DNA from: a virus
Virus record (IMG/VR): IMGVR_UViG_3300031659_000028
Location: 1 to 41,698 of that record
DNA length: 41,698 nucleotides
Reading direction: 5' to 3' (one strand)
The notes beneath the pieces are model-generated. The model made no database searches, had not been told where the DNA came from, and worked only from the letters and a program-made list of their open reading frames with translations. Each line of letters begins with the position of its first letter. Positions within the stretch are counted from its first letter, which is position 1. The position numbers and the translations under genes are program-made. Below, piece by piece: positions 3,561 to 40,600 of the stretch.

Positions 3561-4769
3561 ATGGCAAAAGAATTCTCATTCGCAGACTTAAATAAAGAAA
3601 TGTCAAAGATATCCGAGTATGGGGATACTTTGGACAAATCAACAATCTCAGAAATTGATCATTTTATACCAACCGGTAATTTTCATCTTAATGCATGTTT
3701 AACTGGATCTTTATTTGGCGGTTACCCAAACAACAGAGCAGTTGCATTAGCAGGACCATCTGGTACTGGTAAAACTTATCTTATCCTTAATGCAATTAAA
3801 CAAGCACAGAAACTAGGGTATAGCATTATCTTTTATGATTCTGAAAATGCAGTAGACAAACACCTCGTAGAAAAATTTGGGATAGATCCTAAAACATTCA
3901 GATATGAACCGTGTAATACTGTTCAAGAATTTAGAAGTTCAGTAACTGCTATTACTGATGTATTAATCGAACAAAAGAAAAAGGGTATAAAATTACCAAA
4001 GATTATGGTAGTCTTAGATTCTGCAGGTAATCTTGCAACTCAAAAAGAAATCGATGATGCAAAAACTGGAAGTAGTAAAGCTGATATGACAAGAGCTAAA
4101 TTACTAAAATCTACTTTTAGAATTATTATGACTCAGTTTGGTATATGTAAAATACCTTTCCTATTCACAAATCATACATACCAAACCCAAGATCTATTTT
4201 CAAGACAAGTAGGTGGTGGTGGTACAGGACCAGAATATGCAGCATCAATTATTCTTTTCTTGGGCAAAGCAAAACTTAAAGATGGAATAGAACAAACTGG
4301 AATTATTGTAACAGCTAAACCAAATAAGAATCGTTTTGCAAAACCAACACCAATTAAGTTTCATATATCATTTAATAAAGGTATGAATCCTTATGTAGGT
4401 TTAGAAGAATATATTGGCTGGGACATCTGTGGTATTGAAAGAGGTAGGTTTATTACTGAAGGTGCCTTTGGTAAACTAACAGATCCAGGTAAAGCAGATT
4501 GTAGAATTCATAAATTTAAAAAGGACGGTAAGGCTGTAGTTGTTTATTTCCAACCTTCACCAACCGCACGTAAGATTTGTGTAAAACATTTAAATGACGC
4601 GGTTGATCTTAATCAATTATATACACCACAAGTTTTAACTGATGATGTATTAAAATTAATTGAACCTCAAGTAGTTGCTAAATTTAATTATGGTGATGAA
4701 TTAGAACAGGAAGAGCTATCAGACATAATCACAGAAACAACAGAAGACGATGTTACCGAAAATTCTTAA
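3561..4769 (+). CDS. uvsX: RecA-like recombinase UvsX
   Basis: At 402 residues it is near T4 UvsX (391 aa). The Walker A motif is GPSGTGKT at residues 65-72, with FYDSENAVD next, as in T4 (FYDSEFG). The Walker B strand is VVLDSAGNLATQKE, followed by the UvsX-typical ADMTRAK, the NHTYQTQ loop and VGGGGTGPEYAAS. It polymerises on single-stranded DNA and catalyses strand exchange for recombination-dependent replication. The T4 protein has a degenerate Walker A (GPSKSFKS), while here it is canonical. The C-terminal acidic tail (about residues 385-402) overlaps the start of the next gene by 20 bases, so the two are probably co-translated. Confidence 0.96.
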   Translation: MAKEFSFADLNKEMSKISEYGDTLDKSTISEIDHFIPTGNFHLNACLTGSLFGGYPNNRAVALAGPSGTGKTYLILNAIKQAQKLGYSIIFYDSENAVDKHLVEKFGIDPKTFRYEPCNTVQEFRSSVTAITDVLIEQKKKGIKLPKIMVVLDSAGNLATQKEIDDAKTGSSKADMTRAKLLKSTFRIIMTQFGICKIPFLFTNHTYQTQDLFSRQVGGGGTGPEYAASIILFLGKAKLKDGIEQTGIIVTAKPNKNRFAKPTPIKFHISFNKGMNPYVGLEEYIGWDICGIERGRFITEGAFGKLTDPGKADCRIHKFKKDGKAVVVYFQPSPTARKICVKHLNDAVDLNQLYTPQVLTDDVLKLIEPQVVAKFNYGDELEQEELSDIITETTEDDVTENS

Positions 4770-35183: not shown

Positions 35184-35738
35184 ATGCCGTTACCACATTA
35201 TACCCAATCAAGGGCCAGTAGCCAAAGGTTCGAACCAATACAGCCTAACCTGTTTGAGGTTACTATATTTTCACCATTAGGGGATGATACAGGACTTATC
35301 TTAGAACAAGTAAATTCAATTGGAGGTTTAAATAACTTAAACCCAACCATCGATGTAGTTGGCCAAAAGTACAAATTTGCAGATAGATCATTTGCAAGTA
35401 TGCCAGGTCAGACATTTGCTGATTTAACAGTTAACTTCAGTCTTAACTTGAATGATGCTAACGAAAACTACATATACAATACATTCCGTAACTGGAATAA
35501 TGTAATCTATGATCCATTAACTGGTGAAATGGGATTAAAGAAAGATTACGTAGGTAGTATGATCGTTGTTCAATATAACAGAGCAGGAGATATCTTCAGA
35601 AAGATTACATTTAAAGATGTATTCCCAACAGGACAACCTGATTTTGTAGACGAACTTAATTACACAACACCGGATGCAGCTCAGTTAACAATGGTATTCC
35701 GTTGTGACCATTGGGTTGAGGAGAACGTAGGATCTTAA
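35184..35738 (+). CDS. 19: tail tube protein gp19
   Basis: The 184-residue protein matches T4 gp19 (163 aa) and its family: FEPIQPNLFEVTIFSPLG at the start, FADRSFASMPGQTFADLTVN, NENYIYNTFRNWNNVIYDPL, then KKDYVGSMIVVQYNRAGDIF and a final strand LTMVFRCDHWVEE. It forms the inner tube of stacked hexamers through which DNA passes. It follows the sheath gene with its own promoter-like element and is closed by a terminator at 35758. Length is only slightly above T4, unlike the greatly enlarged sheath. Confidence 0.95.
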   Translation: MPLPHYTQSRASSQRFEPIQPNLFEVTIFSPLGDDTGLILEQVNSIGGLNNLNPTIDVVGQKYKFADRSFASMPGQTFADLTVNFSLNLNDANENYIYNTFRNWNNVIYDPLTGEMGLKKDYVGSMIVVQYNRAGDIFRKITFKDVFPTGQPDFVDELNYTTPDAAQLTMVFRCDHWVEENVGS

Positions 35739-35836: not shown

Positions 35837-36307
35837 ATGATTATCTATAAATTACAACAAGAAAAAACAAACAAAGTTTACATAGGGTATTCATTAAATG
35901 ACAATCCTAATAACTTTGGAACTGGAAAATACATCAAGCGTGCAGTTAAGGATTTTGGAACAAAGTCTTTTGATAGAGAGGTTGTTGAAGTCTTCGAAGA
36001 AGATCATTCATTAAGTGATGTTTTAAAAAGAGTAGAATATTGGATTAATAAATTTAAATCTGATAACTCTAAATATGGATTTAATGAAACAGTCCAAGAA
36101 CTTATCCCACAAAGGAAACGACTTACTAAAAAATTACAAGTATTGTTAACACCTGAAGATGAGGATAGCCTTAATACTATCATTATACAAAAATCAATGG
36201 AAAACAGAATTAAACCTGTTGCTATTTCAAGATATGTAAGACAATTAATAGTTGAGCATATAGTTGAAGAAACTAAACCAGAAAAACAATTAATAAAAAA
36301 TAAATAA
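35837..36307 (+). CDS. GIY-YIG endonuclease-like protein with ribbon-helix-helix-like tail
   Basis: The first 90 of 156 residues follow the GIY-YIG nuclease layout: IIYKL for GIY, KVYIGYS for YIG, FGTGKYIKRAVKDFGTKSFD (as in many phage homing nucleases), and the helix with the catalytic-type Glu, RVEYWINKF. The usual catalytic Arg after YIG is not obvious, so activity is uncertain. The tail (LTKKLQVLLTPEDEDSLNTI, then KPVAISRYVRQLIVEHI) resembles a ribbon-helix-helix DNA-binding domain. A free-standing homing endonuclease or its domesticated relative is the likely identity. It sits between tube and chaperone genes in its own unit, an intergenic place typical of such invaders. Confidence 0.68.
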   Translation: MIIYKLQQEKTNKVYIGYSLNDNPNNFGTGKYIKRAVKDFGTKSFDREVVEVFEEDHSLSDVLKRVEYWINKFKSDNSKYGFNETVQELIPQRKRLTKKLQVLLTPEDEDSLNTIIIQKSMENRIKPVAISRYVRQLIVEHIVEETKPEKQLIKNK

Positions 36308-36310
36308 AAG

Positions 36311-37309
36311 ATGTCAAAAGAGCACGAAGATAATATCCAGAAGGAATTCGATAAAGCTGAAACTGTTCAGGTGGAAGCTACTGAAACTCCAAACACCGTA
36401 GTAGAAAGCTTAGGTAAAGTTGATACTAACAGACAAATGAATAAGATTACTTCAGATGATCCTGAAATTAAAAGGTTAAACGCTATGGTTGGTTATACTA
36501 GGCTAGATCTTAATAGTTTTCCATCTAAAGGTAAATTTTACAGAGATGATTTTGAAATTCATATTAGACCTGCGAAGGTTGCAGAAATTAGAAGCTTCTC
36601 AACTATCGATGAAAATAACCTTAGAGATGTAGATGAAGGGTTAAATAACATTGTAATATCATGTTGTAAAGTAACTTATGGTACACAGCGGGGATCTTAT
36701 AAAGATATACTTGAAGAAGATAGAATTTATTTAATACTTTCTATTAGAGAATTAACATTTAAAACAGGTGAGCATACATTGATGATGCCAGTTTCAGGTA
36801 ATTCATGTAAATCTTCAATGTGTAAATCTCAAGAATCTGTAGAATTAAGAACTAGTAATTTACAATTTAATTCTGTTGTAGAAAAATTTGAAAAATACTA
36901 TGATGAAGGTGATAGGTGTTATTCTATTGCTACTAAGAATTACGGTGTTATCCAAATGGCCCCTCCAACTATTGGTATTATGAGAGCTATAACTGATTAT
37001 ATCAGAGATAGAGAAGAGAACAATAAGAACTGGGATAAATCTACACTGGCTATCTTGCCTTACTTACAAAGAGAATGGCGAGGTTGGACAGAAAAAGATA
37101 TCTTTGCTAAGATTACATCTTTTCAAGGATGGGATTCTACAAAATATACAATTGTCTACAGATTAGCTGAGGACATGAAAATCGGTGTTAAACCGGAGAT
37201 GGTATTCCCATGTAAAAGCTGCAGTGAGGAGGTCACTGTGCCGCTCACGTTTCCCGGCGGTATCAAGGCTCTGTTCCTTATTCCAGATATCTCTACTGAA
37301 CTTCTTTAA
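36311..37309 (+). CDS. 26: gp26-like baseplate hub / tail assembly protein
   Basis: The 332-residue protein has LDLNSFPSKGKFYRDDFEIH, IRPAKVAEIRSFSTIDENNL and RDVDEGLNNIVISCCKVTYG, the signature of the T4 baseplate protein family that includes gp26. After that come a central domain (KYYDEGDRCYSIATKNYGVI) and a C-terminal zinc-knuckle-like CKSC. T4 gp26 is shorter (208 aa). It lies directly upstream of the tape measure gene, the place of tail assembly chaperones in other phages. It ends at ELL-stop with the bases CTTCTTTAAAG; the +1 frame continues open for 83 more residues that look like the separate gp51-type partner (next entry). Confidence 0.72.
   Translation: MSKEHEDNIQKEFDKAETVQVEATETPNTVVESLGKVDTNRQMNKITSDDPEIKRLNAMVGYTRLDLNSFPSKGKFYRDDFEIHIRPAKVAEIRSFSTIDENNLRDVDEGLNNIVISCCKVTYGTQRGSYKDILEEDRIYLILSIRELTFKTGEHTLMMPVSGNSCKSSMCKSQESVELRTSNLQFNSVVEKFEKYYDEGDRCYSIATKNYGVIQMAPPTIGIMRAITDYIRDREENNKNWDKSTLAILPYLQREWRGWTEKDIFAKITSFQGWDSTKYTIVYRLAEDMKIGVKPEMVFPCKSCSEEVTVPLTFPGGIKALFLIPDISTELL
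37222..37262 (+). other. GC-rich double hairpin upstream of the putative shift site
   Basis: CAGTGA-GGAGG-TCACTG (37222-37238) is followed without gap by a second stem TGCCGC/GCGGTA (37239-37262, one G-U pair, 12-base loop). Bases 37201-37290 are 51% GC in an otherwise AT-rich region. It ends about 40 bases before the CTT-TAA at 37304. Any link with frameshifting is inference. Confidence 0.5.
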
Positions 37310-37559
37310 AGTTCGAGTATTGTTATTAGAAAAGTTGCATCTCCAACCATCAGAGTTGGATTTGCTTCCTTTTTATGAATATGAATATACCCTGGAGATT
37401 TATAACGACTTGCTAAAAGATCGTAATAAGCAAGAAGCGCAAAATACTAAAGACACACAGGATAAATACAATATGGATGGAATGAAGAATCAGACCCAAA
37501 AGAATATGGGTCAGTATAAAATGCCTTCAATGCCAAGCATGACTATGCCCAAATTGTAA
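37310..37559 (+). CDS. 51: gp51-like extension, in +1 frame to gp26-like gene
   Basis: From the gp26-like stop the +1 frame reads KVRVLLLEKLHLQPSELDLL, PFYEYEYTLEIYNDLLKDRN, then a Met/Gln/Lys-rich tail ending MPSMPSMTMPKL. The ELDxLPxYEYxYxLE pattern matches the small helical tail chaperone partner that follows gp26-type proteins in T4-like and other phages. No ATG starts this segment; the frame's nearest ATG is at 37185, where it would translate as an implausible basic peptide inside gp26. So it is either made by +1 slippage at CTT-TAA, by a TTG start at 37319, or the stop is a sequence error. Together with the tape measure gene next door this copies the lambda G-GT-H layout. Confidence 0.65.
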
Positions 37560-37573
37560 AAAATAAAATCTAA

Positions 37574-40500
37574 ATGGCTGTCGCAACTATTAAAGACTTA
37601 TTGGATCCGTTAACAAAGATTCAAGCTGCTACTGAATCATCAGCTGCATCTCTTGACGCTTTCACTGCTGCTACTGCTGCACAGATGCAAGGAGATATAT
37701 CTATCTTGAAAAAATTAGATAGACTTATTGAAGTAAGCAGTAGTACCAACATGAATACACGTGACCTTGCTATGTATAAGAACAGCAGGGAACAGACTAA
37801 GCTATTGGGAATAATAGCAAAAAGTAAAGGTAAAGTATCTGGTGGTAAAGAATCTGGTAGTAAAGGTACAGGTAAACTAAAGGAAGGCGCTGCTAGTCTT
37901 AAGTCATTAGGGCAAGGGGCAGTTGCATTAGCAAAAGGCCTAATCTTATTTAGAATAGTTCCTAAAAAGACTATACTAAAATTTCAGGATTTTGTTAAAG
38001 ATCAAATCGAAATTTGGGAGAAGTCTAAACCTAAGAAAATGGAAAAGGGCGCTAAGGCAATGTTAGCAATGGGTAATGCAATTTATACGTTTGCCAAATC
38101 ATTAGCATTAGCAGCACTTCTATTAATACCAGCTGCTATTGGAATCCCAATGCTATATTTAGCAACCATGTTGTTGGTACCTTTATTTGTTTTATTAGGC
38201 AAACGATCAAAGCAAATTAGAAAAGGTGCCAGAGCATTAGATAGAATAGGTGATGCAATGAAATCATTTGCAGTTGGACTAGCCGTGTTTGCATTAGCCA
38301 CTATGTTTATTTTAATGAAACCCGTTATTCTTCTTGGGATGGTCGCATCATTATTATTAATTGGTGGTACTGTTGCAATATTAGGAAGGTTTAGTAAAAC
38401 TATAAGGAAAGGATCTGTTGCATTATTATTAATGGGTATAGGTTTGGCTGCATTTGGTATAGGTTATGGTTTATTCGCATTAGCTGTGACATTAGCAGCA
38501 CCTAGTGTAGGAGATGTATTATTACAAGCTGCTGTGCTGATTGGGATAGGTATAGCAACAGCTCTCTTAGGAATGGTTTGGACGCATATTCTAAAGGGCG
38601 CTGTGGCATTAGCATTGATGGGTATAGGTTTGGCTATATTTGGCCTTGGGTATATTCCATTTGCACATGCAACTAAAGATACTACTATGGGTGATATTGG
38701 TGTCCAAGGCGCGCTATTATTAATGTTAGGTTTAGAATTTGCAGCAGCGGGGTTTGGCGCATTGTTTATTATACCAGGTGCGGCTGCGTTTGCTGCTATA
38801 GGTGGTGCACTGATGTTATTAGCACCGGGTTTAAAAGCTATAAAGAATGTTAAGTGGACACAAGCTGATTCTACCGACTTAGTTACACTATTAGCTGGGG
38901 TTAAAACTGCATTCTTGGGAACAACCAATACAGAAGGTGGGGCAACAGGATTCTTCAAAAATATAGGTAATGCTTTAGGTAGTACTGTGAAAGGTCCAAT
39001 GATGATTTCAGCAGCCGCTGGTTATGCAGCAGCAGGTATCGCATTAACTAAATTATCAGTTGGTTTAAAAGCATTTAAATCTGTAGATTGGGATGATGAT
39101 CAAAGTACAATATTAGCTACTGCATTAACTGGAATTAGTGGCGCCTTTGCTTCGGCTGGTGGTGAAGCTCCTAATCCAGGTGGTGTATTTGGTGCTATAT
39201 TTGGAAATGCATTTAGTCCTAATGCAACTGAGAAGGGTATTGATTCTGTAATGAGTGCAGGAAAGGCATTAACTAATATAGCTGAAGGATTAAAATCTTT
39301 TCAAAAATTAATAGATAGCGGAGTAGAATTTGGAGATCCTAATAGAGAAGGTGGTCCATTAAAAGGAACTCTTGCTTATGCTGTAATTAATACAGTAGGT
39401 TTTGTAAAGCAAGCATTTGCTGCAATTGGTGGTGCGGATCAATCTGTAGAATCAGGTGGTTTTTTCAGTGGCTTATTTGGTATTAAATCAACAGCAACAG
39501 AAGAAGGTATACGTTCAGTAAAAGGTGCAGGTACAGAATTAAATAATATTGCAAAGGGTTTAGAAGGATTCCAAAAATTAATAGAAAGTAAAGTTAATTT
39601 TGGAGATCCTGCTAACCCACAATTAGGAACTCTTGCATATGCTGTAATTAATACAGTAGGTTTTGTACAACAAGCATTTGCTGCCATTGGTAGTCAAAAA
39701 GATGTAGATAAAGGAGGCTTCTTCGGGGGTCTATTTGGAATTAAACAGAATGCAGTACAAAAAGGTATACAATCAGTATCAGGAGCAGGTGAAGAACTGA
39801 GTAAAATAGCAGATGCAATATCAACATTTTCTGGTATTAAAAATCCTAAAGGAACAGCAAGTAGAATAAAGGAAGTTTTGACTTTAGTTGGAGATGCGTT
39901 TGCTTCTATTGGTGGAAAAGAAAATACAGATAGTAAATCTAGCTTATTTGGTTTAATTACATGGGATGAGAATAAAATACAAAAAGGTATTGATGCAGTA
40001 GATGGTGCAGGCGAAGCATTAACAAATATAGCAGCTGGCCTTAAAGCATTTGGTGGAGACACTCAGCCTCAAACAGTAGCAACATCGATTGGAACTCTAT
40101 TAACTTCGATAGGAACTGCATTCAGTGACCTATATGCAACTAACCCATTCATAGCCCCACAACTACATGACTTTTCTACATTCATTGTAACATTAGGAAA
40201 TGTAGCAGAAAAAGGATTGTTAGACAAAGCAGCAGATGGTATTTCTAAAATTGCAGATTCAATTAATAAAATAGATATTGACAAAACAGTTGCATTTGGT
40301 GATCTATTTAAATCAAGCGCTAAACTTTCTGAAGACAATGATGCATATAAATCTTTAGCCAAAGCAGTTGAAGATATAAGAGATATCATGCAAGAACAGA
40401 AAGCACCAGGACTTATTGATAGAGGGCTTAATGCAATAGGTTTAGGTTCTGATAAAGCAGCAGCACCAGCAGCCGCAACAAAGGGTGCTGATCCAATGAA

Positions 40501-40600
40501 GAAATTAAATTCTACATTAGGAAGACTTGAAAATGCTATCACTGCATTACCAACAGCTATCCAGACAATGAAACTTGAAGTTTCTATACCTGGGCAATAA
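37574..40600 (+). CDS. tail tape measure protein (gp29 position)
   Basis: The 1008-residue protein has a short helical N-terminus with coiled-coil (about 1-75), a Gly/Lys/Ser-rich linker, then a long hydrophobic stretch (about 165-420) with repeated motifs such as ALALMGIGLAIFGLGYIPF and ALLLMGIGLAAFGIGYGLF, and a repeat-rich C-terminal half. This is the layout of a tape measure, which sets tail length and spans the tube; T4 gp29 is 590 residues. It directly follows the gp26/gp51-like pair, as tape measures follow their chaperones. I cannot align it to gp29, so the gene number is from position. The following 39-aa ORF starts on the last base of its stop codon (TAATG). Confidence 0.85.
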   Translation: MAVATIKDLLDPLTKIQAATESSAASLDAFTAATAAQMQGDISILKKLDRLIEVSSSTNMNTRDLAMYKNSREQTKLLGIIAKSKGKVSGGKESGSKGTGKLKEGAASLKSLGQGAVALAKGLILFRIVPKKTILKFQDFVKDQIEIWEKSKPKKMEKGAKAMLAMGNAIYTFAKSLALAALLLIPAAIGIPMLYLATMLLVPLFVLLGKRSKQIRKGARALDRIGDAMKSFAVGLAVFALATMFILMKPVILLGMVASLLLIGGTVAILGRFSKTIRKGSVALLLMGIGLAAFGIGYGLFALAVTLAAPSVGDVLLQAAVLIGIGIATALLGMVWTHILKGAVALALMGIGLAIFGLGYIPFAHATKDTTMGDIGVQGALLLMLGLEFAAAGFGALFIIPGAAAFAAIGGALMLLAPGLKAIKNVKWTQADSTDLVTLLAGVKTAFLGTTNTEGGATGFFKNIGNALGSTVKGPMMISAAAGYAAAGIALTKLSVGLKAFKSVDWDDDQSTILATALTGISGAFASAGGEAPNPGGVFGAIFGNAFSPNATEKGIDSVMSAGKALTNIAEGLKSFQKLIDSGVEFGDPNREGGPLKGTLAYAVINTVGFVKQAFAAIGGADQSVESGGFFSGLFGIKSTATEEGIRSVKGAGTELNNIAKGLEGFQKLIESKVNFGDPANPQLGTLAYAVINTVGFVQQAFAAIGSQKDVDKGGFFGGLFGIKQNAVQKGIQSVSGAGEELSKIADAISTFSGIKNPKGTASRIKEVLTLVGDAFASIGGKENTDSKSSLFGLITWDENKIQKGIDAVDGAGEALTNIAAGLKAFGGDTQPQTVATSIGTLLTSIGTAFSDLYATNPFIAPQLHDFSTFIVTLGNVAEKGLLDKAADGISKIADSINKIDIDKTVAFGDLFKSSAKLSEDNDAYKSLAKAVEDIRDIMQEQKAPGLIDRGLNAIGLGSDKAAAPAAATKGADPMKKLNSTLGRLENAITALPTAIQTMKLEVSIPGQ
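39221..40130 (+). repeat. four degenerate repeats of 74-90 residues in the tape measure
   Basis: The units contain GI(D/R/Q)(S/A)V...AG..L.(N/K)IA.(G/A)(L/I).(S/G/T)F followed by G(T)LAYAVINTVGFV.QAFAAIG. The first two copies share nearly identical DNA around CTGTAATTAATACAGTAGGT, 261 bases apart (39381 and 39642). Copies three and four (39748, 39971) are more diverged and shorter. Unit changes here would alter tail length in steps. Confidence 0.85.

Follow-up and report, generated by a model that had tools for sequence, protein, structure and literature searches.

The locus

The sequence studied, referred to here as the window, is the whole 41.7-kb (41,698-nt) IMG/VR virus record IMGVR_UViG_3300031659_000028. 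Its tail genes follow the order tail sheath, tail tube, GIY-YIG homing endonuclease, two chaperone ORFs and probable tape measure. The two overlapping tail-assembly chaperone (TAC) ORFs, at 36311-37559, lie directly 5′ of the putative tape-measure gene, which starts at 37574, 15 nt past the stop of the long form, TAC-NC. The features are as follows.

35184-35738, + strand: tail tube protein (phrog_3629 tail tube, 3.2e-7)
35837-36307: GIY-YIG homing endonuclease-like ORF of 156 aa, between the tail tube and chaperone genes (phrog_314, 6e-9)
36311-37309, + strand: TAC-N, the short tail-assembly chaperone, T4 gp26-like, 332 aa, zero frame (weak PF12322 match, phrog_36717, AlphaFold2 model and BFVD)
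37227-37234, + strand: Shine-Dalgarno (SD)-like element AGGAGGTC, codons GAG GAG GTC, with GGAGGT at 37228-37233 (conserved GAGGTC)
37250-37255, + strand: putative slip site TTT CCC, at which UUU_C would shift +1 to UUC with the rare CCC in the A site (conserved TTTC/TTTCCC)
37254-37559, + strand: +1-frame coding region of TAC-NC (conserved in the +1 frame, without stops)
36311-37252 joined to 37254-37559, + strand: predicted TAC-NC product, 415 aa (shift at TTTC)
37254-37309, + strand: dual-coded overlap, the zero frame giving the tail of TAC-N and the +1 frame PAVSRLCSLFQISLLNFF (synonymous diversity, codon-position variation)
37301-37309, + strand: CTT CTT TAA, the zero-frame terminus of TAC-N, which the initial annotation took for the slip site and which is not the shift site (pre-stop codons variable between lineages)
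37574-40600, + strand: probable tape-measure protein, 1008 aa (position and length; weak match to phrog_788 tail protein, E = 0.0057)

Much of the initial annotation of this locus was borne out by the sequence. The gp26-like ORF of 332 residues ends GAA CTT CTT TAA AG, with the TAA at 37307; the +1 frame, open from 37179 to 37559, runs on for 83 residues past that stop (37308-37556); and the window has no ATG near the stop.

Conservation of the +1 continuation

In the first viral set, all 78 complete relatives among viral contigs have the +1 continuation, and none continues in the zero or the −1 frame. The same continuation was found in 12 distant phage records, to about 20-30% identity, including uncultured phages of 460-740 kb, PAU, Lak phages, Chryseobacterium phage MA9V-2, Tenacibaculum phages pT24 and PTm1, and Flavobacterium phage MaF61. 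It recurs at about 85 loci belonging to a second large clade, and in about 100 further contigs overall; in the new clades reached by a motif scan (described below) the zero frame ends in TGA. Across 31 lineages that are less than 60% identical to each other in the upstream part, the 32 codons that follow TTT contain no stop in the +1 frame. By this comparison, the conserved +1 continuation rules out assembly error or chance. The programmed +1 frameshift first proposed from the window is therefore strongly supported, since the continuation is kept in every complete locus examined, and a programmed shift joining TAC-N to the C-terminal extension (TAC-C) is very likely.

Where the extension is annotated at all in isolate records, it stands as a short separate hypothetical protein, e.g., PAU_94 and MA9V2_060; the present reading would correct this, making it part of TAC-NC. 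PAU is recorded with a Sphingomonas host that is in fact a Sphingobacterium (PMC3738902); all isolate hosts here are therefore Bacteroidota. In the Prevotella phage Lak-B5 an in-frame TAG lies 18 codons into the +1 extension, at a position that is a sense codon in the related Lak-C1. This agrees with TAG being recoded in Lak-B phages and with the extension being genuinely translated.

Where the shift occurs

Already from the first codon past the stop, variation is synonymous in the +1 frame (Lys AAA/AAG; Arg AGA/CGA/AGG/CGG), which argues against a downstream start. Upstream of the stop, zero-frame synonymous diversity falls to 0.08-0.10 of that expected in the last 10 codons and to 0.10-0.36 in the 10 codons preceding those; it is normal again right past the stop, and the drop, which spans some 20-30 codons in all, is seen in each of two clades about 30% identical to one another. 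Variation that farther upstream is concentrated at codon position 3 moves, downstream of TTTCCC and from about codon −13, to position 1, which is the wobble position of the +1 frame. In the 31 lineages the frame with the greater amino-acid similarity changes from 0 to +1 about 7-9 codons past TTT, and the +1 frame is free of stops from TTT onward in every one of them, with many stops upstream. Of 189 distinct sites, 37 have such a +1-frame stop 5 nt upstream of TTT, and the shift must therefore occur at or after that point. Taken together, the codon-position switch, the frame crossover and the +1 stops place the shift no earlier than the codon before TTT and no later than roughly codon −13.

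Profile alignment gives independent support for the TTTC site. With hhalign, the fusion made at TTTC matched a profile of T4 gp51 together with cyanophage and Vibrio TAC-NC at E 1.8e-6 (probability 89.7), better than the fusion made at the stop (1.3e-4); with T4-group gp51 alone neither fusion was significant (E 0.025 for the TTTC-made one). The products of 332 and 415 residues postulated initially keep their sizes when the shift is placed at TTTC, but the junction peptide does not remain LLKVR. Because the invariant TTTC and the constrained +1 frame lie upstream of the stop, it would instead read LTFP-AVSRLCSLFQISLLNFFKVRV. The tryptic peptide LCSLFQISLLNFFK could be made only by a shift upstream of the stop; SCSEEVTVPLTFPAVSR spans the TTTC junction, and ALFLIPDISTELLK is the peptide expected from a shift at the CTT codon.

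The signal

The motif was characterized in 111 distinct sites that had been found by protein similarity and are thus unbiased with respect to it. TTTC is present in 111 of 111, a figure that slightly overstates its invariance, since it omits L092 (TAC CCC, with no TTTC in the search range) and since, for a few phages at the most divergent end (MA9V, PTm1), the count took the nearest TTTC, off the aligned position. It lies 57-63 nt upstream of the zero-frame stop. TTTCCC occurs in 102 of the 111 sites, GAGGTC in 96 and GAGATC in 6. The distance from GAGGTC to TTT is 15 nt in all 96, so that GGAGGT and TTT are 16 nt apart. The base before GAGGTC is G in 100 of 111 sites, whatever the amino acid encoded (GAG, GCG, GTG, CAG, TTG, ACG, AAG, GGG); in the window GAG GTC lies at 37229-37234, and the leading G yields GGAGGTC. 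The codons of the motif are rare in the phage: CCC accounts for 3% of Pro, GTC for 4% of Val and GAG for 18% of Glu. Some lineages have the variants TTT CAA and TTT CCT, and divergent lineages lacking TTTCCC have CTG GAA (MA9V), ACC CAA (PTm1) or TAC CCC (L092). In MaF61 and in L466 a GGAGGGG occurs about 21-22 nt upstream of TTTC, and GGAGGTC is not found at the usual spacing.

The window contains a single GAGGTC-N15-TTTCCC, and shuffled versions of it contain none. A protein-blind scan for GAGGTC-N15-TTTCCC-N3-GG across 2.9 million viral contigs returned at least 119 readable loci; among the matches listed, TAC-N was present in 102 of 119, always in frame 0. A control scan with N12 spacing gave 104 matches with TAC-N in none (0/104), in DNA of 59% G+C as against 33%. 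Bacterial genomes yielded a single metagenome bin with TTTCCC, its host not informative, and a viral scan with the MA9V protein as query gave no matches. No conserved RNA structure was found, either around the site or farther downstream (z between −1.9 and 0.9). Conserved +1 coding, a bracketed site and a conserved motif with fixed spacing are what the sequences provide. On this basis GGAGGTC-N15-TTTCCC, about 55 nt ahead of the stop, is the conserved, predicted +1 shift signal of a large tailed-phage family whose cultured members infect Bacteroidota. Tenacibaculum phage pT24 and phage PAU are among the isolates with this signal.

We consider it highly probable, at nearly nine chances in ten, that a +1 shift on UUU_CCC with an upstream GGAGGU makes TAC-NC and that TAC-N comes from the zero frame. 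Most ribosomes would stay in the zero frame to the TAA at 37307 and make the 332-residue TAC-N. In a fraction of them, with UUU (37250-37252) in the P site and the rare CCC in the A site, tRNAPhe would slip by one base from UUU to UUC, and reading would resume at CCG GCG GTA... to give TAC-NC of 415 residues, of which 315 are common to TAC-N and 100 come from the +1 frame, beginning FP-AVSRLCSLFQISLLNFFKVRV. A slip on UUU or on CCC would give the identical 415-residue protein; slippage of tRNAPhe on UUU is favored because the TTT CCT and TTT CAA variants retain UUU_C. The upstream GGAGGU appears, from its conservation, to be part of the signal, and it would probably pair with the tail of 16S rRNA, slowing or straining the ribosome. 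If the pair behaves as gpG/gpGT does in lambda, the tape measure would be coated by TAC-N, and tube subunits would be recruited by the C-terminal domain of TAC-NC. From these data we infer the slippage on UUU, the action of GGAGGU, the product ratio and the chaperone function.

Other readings of the locus

The reading that fares best among the others, though still improbable, is that TAC-C is a separate protein made by internal initiation or termination-reinitiation, perhaps with GGAGGT as the ribosome binding site. GGAGGT is a perfect SD core; clade B has an in-frame ATG 10 nt past it (offset −2) and also +1-frame ATGs before the stop, PAU has an SD and ATG just past the stop, and T4 gene 26 has an annotated internal start. 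Against this, 64 of 189 distinct sites lack any +1-frame ATG, GTG or TTG between TTT and the sixth codon past the stop, and an ATG-started TAC-C was rejected on this finding. The window itself has only a TTG, at 37320 and not at 37319 where it was originally placed, and a TTG stands at that codon in 3 of 56 distinct relatives only. Any start near GGAGGT would be in frame 0, not +1; in 37 sites the +1 stop precedes TTT by 5 nt; and a separate start of TAC-C leaves the invariant TTT CCC unexplained.

Slightly less probable is a prfB-like shift at the zero-frame end, the site originally proposed by analogy with CUU UGA. CTT TAA does fit the known CUU_U slip, and codon −2 is always CTT in clade A, but that invariance is explained by the overlapping +1-frame Phe codon (TTC/TTT). 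The codon preceding the stop varies greatly from lineage to lineage, being CTT, TTA, GAA, AAA, TTT, GGA, ATT, TCT and others; the +1 frame is already the conserved frame upstream of the stop; no SD adjoins CTT/TAA; and the fusion made at the stop has the poorer profile match. The site found here is UUU_CCC, involves no stop and has its SD-like element 16 nt upstream.

A −2 shift in the same region would yield the same frame, and an SD at long spacing would be expected to pull backwards. Since the preceding bases vary (ACG, TCC, CAA, AAC, TAC...), neither UUU nor CCC has a −2 re-pairing, and UUU to UUC is perfect for +1; we regard this reading as very unlikely. A sequencing or assembly indel, which the initial annotation had raised and which might be entertained for a single contig, is already refuted, since isolate genomes and more than 180 distinct sites show the same +1 arrangement. 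Transcriptional slippage was also considered and rejected, there being no homopolymer run of the needed length.

In clade B, the frame-0 ATG 10 nt past GGAGGT is codon −2 before TTT in 49 of 49 loci. It could add a short product by internal start.

The chaperone family

TAC-N matched PF12322 weakly (E = 0.0028, 17.8 bits, below the 24.5 cut-off), its profile match to the T4 gp26 family was likewise weak, and it matched phrog_36717 at 5e-27. TAC-N and TAC-C were modelled separately, not as one chain. The AlphaFold2 model of TAC-N (pLDDT 78.8) gave 39 Foldseek matches in BFVD at E<=1e-3, several of them to T4-like baseplate hub assembly proteins or T4 gp51-like proteins; that of TAC-C was poor (pLDDT 67). 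Sequence and fold searches of the PDB returned nothing significant, the HK97 chaperone 2ob9 appearing only at E = 8. By its predicted fold TAC-N belongs to the T4-type TACs, and by profile comparison with gp51 and with cyanophage and Vibrio TAC-NC, the C-terminal extension resembles the C-terminus of gp51. The original assignment to chaperones of the T4 gp26/gp51 type adjoining the tape-measure gene is thus upheld. Its label gp51-like needs adjusting: T4 gp51 is the counterpart of the whole 415-residue fusion, and the +1 part matches the C-terminal domain of gp51 only.

T4 gp26 and gp51 are paralogs (hhalign 99.5%), as expected if TAC-N and TAC-NC are in separate T4 genes. The two-gene arrangement of T4 gp26/gp51 as TAC-N and TAC-NC is the published view (Vladimirov, Gautam and Davidson, 2022, as PMC10885494 and PMC12846349 cite it). 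Vladimirov and colleagues reportedly describe frameshifting in other T4-like groups as well, in agreement with PMC12846349. The −1 frame encodes the extension in cyanophage S-CAM8 and in Vibrio phage Bakedbeans, the site being TTTTTTC. Synechococcus phage S-SCSM1 (stop at 3685) differs from S-CAM8 in that its TAC-C follows in the +1 frame of TAC-N, close to an ATG and next to an intact TTTTTTC; this TAC-C is possibly a separately started gene. One T4-type chaperone family would thus have come to three solutions, two genes, −1 and +1, and the +1 version, with its own strict signal, is conserved from marine T4-like phages to jumbo phages of Bacteroidota.

Comparison with known frameshift systems

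Tail-chaperone frameshifts are classic, that of lambda gpG/gpGT having been treated by Xu, Hendrix and Duda (2004). As in lambda, two overlapping ORFs lie between tail tube and tape measure (reviewed in PMC5009743), and the short and long forms would share an N-terminal part, the long form arising by frameshift; as in lambda G/GT, the frame transition and the extension are conserved over large divergence. The lambda shift is −1 on a slippery heptamer, whereas here it would be +1 at UUU_CCC with an upstream GGAGGU. One likely +1 case among tail chaperones is that of the archaeal myovirus HSTV-2 (PMC5009743). The window's chaperones are like T4 gp26/gp51 in family, by fold and C-terminal profile, and unlike them in arrangement: T4 has two genes, other T4-like groups use −1 at poly-T, and the window's lineage is +1 throughout.

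With prfB (RF2) the site would share a +1 direction, a P-site slip and an internal SD-like sequence. In prfB, however, the SD lies 3 nt from CUU and a UGA stop is in the A site (PMC12421855), whereas here the spacing is 16 nt, the codon is UUU and CCC is a sense codon; the combination of CUU and in-frame UGA with an SD 3 nt upstream was not found. Influenza A PA-X (UCC_UUU_CGU) has the same P-site UUU_C to UUC with a rare sense codon in the A site (PMC3498833). PA-X uses a eukaryotic ribosome and a conserved UCC E-site codon and has no SD; here the E-site codon is variable and GGAGGU is fixed upstream. The PA-X slip is experimentally supported, and UUU_C sites whose A-site codons are restricted have been predicted to form a broader class (PMC3498833). 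The present site has the sequence features of that class (UUU, C next and a rare A-site codon), the slippage itself being predicted. An internal SD stimulates +1 shifting from a distance of about 3 nt, as in prfB (PMC12421855), and −1 shifting from 8-11 nt (PMC6321510). The 16-nt spacing from GGAGGU to UUU fits neither the prfB +1 element nor the −1 stimulators.

Host ribosomes

The predicted signal includes an SD-like sequence, and the ribosomes of these hosts do not normally read SDs. In Bacteroidia the anti-SD is hidden by the protein bS21. Ribosomes of the Bacteroidia normally sequester the anti-SD (PMC9976891, PMC8710568), and F. johnsoniae prfB retains a +1 site that looks SD-dependent (PMC8710568). 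A tentative proposal, less likely to hold than the shift itself by a wide measure, is that GGAGGU-N16-UUU_CCC is a distinct class of bacterial +1 signal, acting through pairing with the 16S anti-SD at a spacing not seen before, in hosts where the anti-SD is normally occluded. The chaperone ratio might then report on or exploit anti-SD release (e.g., bS21-less ribosomes), and the element might track the host anti-SD. Because the spacing fits no known model, the site offers a direct test of the role of the anti-SD during elongation in Bacteroidia.

Ribosomes of Chryseobacterium have the anti-SD UCUCA (PMC8710568). In Chryseobacterium phage MA9V-2, GAGACA stands where other phages have GAGGTC, and CTG GAA replaces TTT CCC. 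Covariation of GAGACA with the UCUCA of the host family is possible, and as one lineage (n = 1) it may be coincidence; a search for further Weeksellaceae phages that might show such covariation found none. No bS21 gene was found in the window fragment, and two of 13 relatives encode bS21, at 114138-114287 in G001 (the contig of L058) and at 296654-296806 in LR745206.1.
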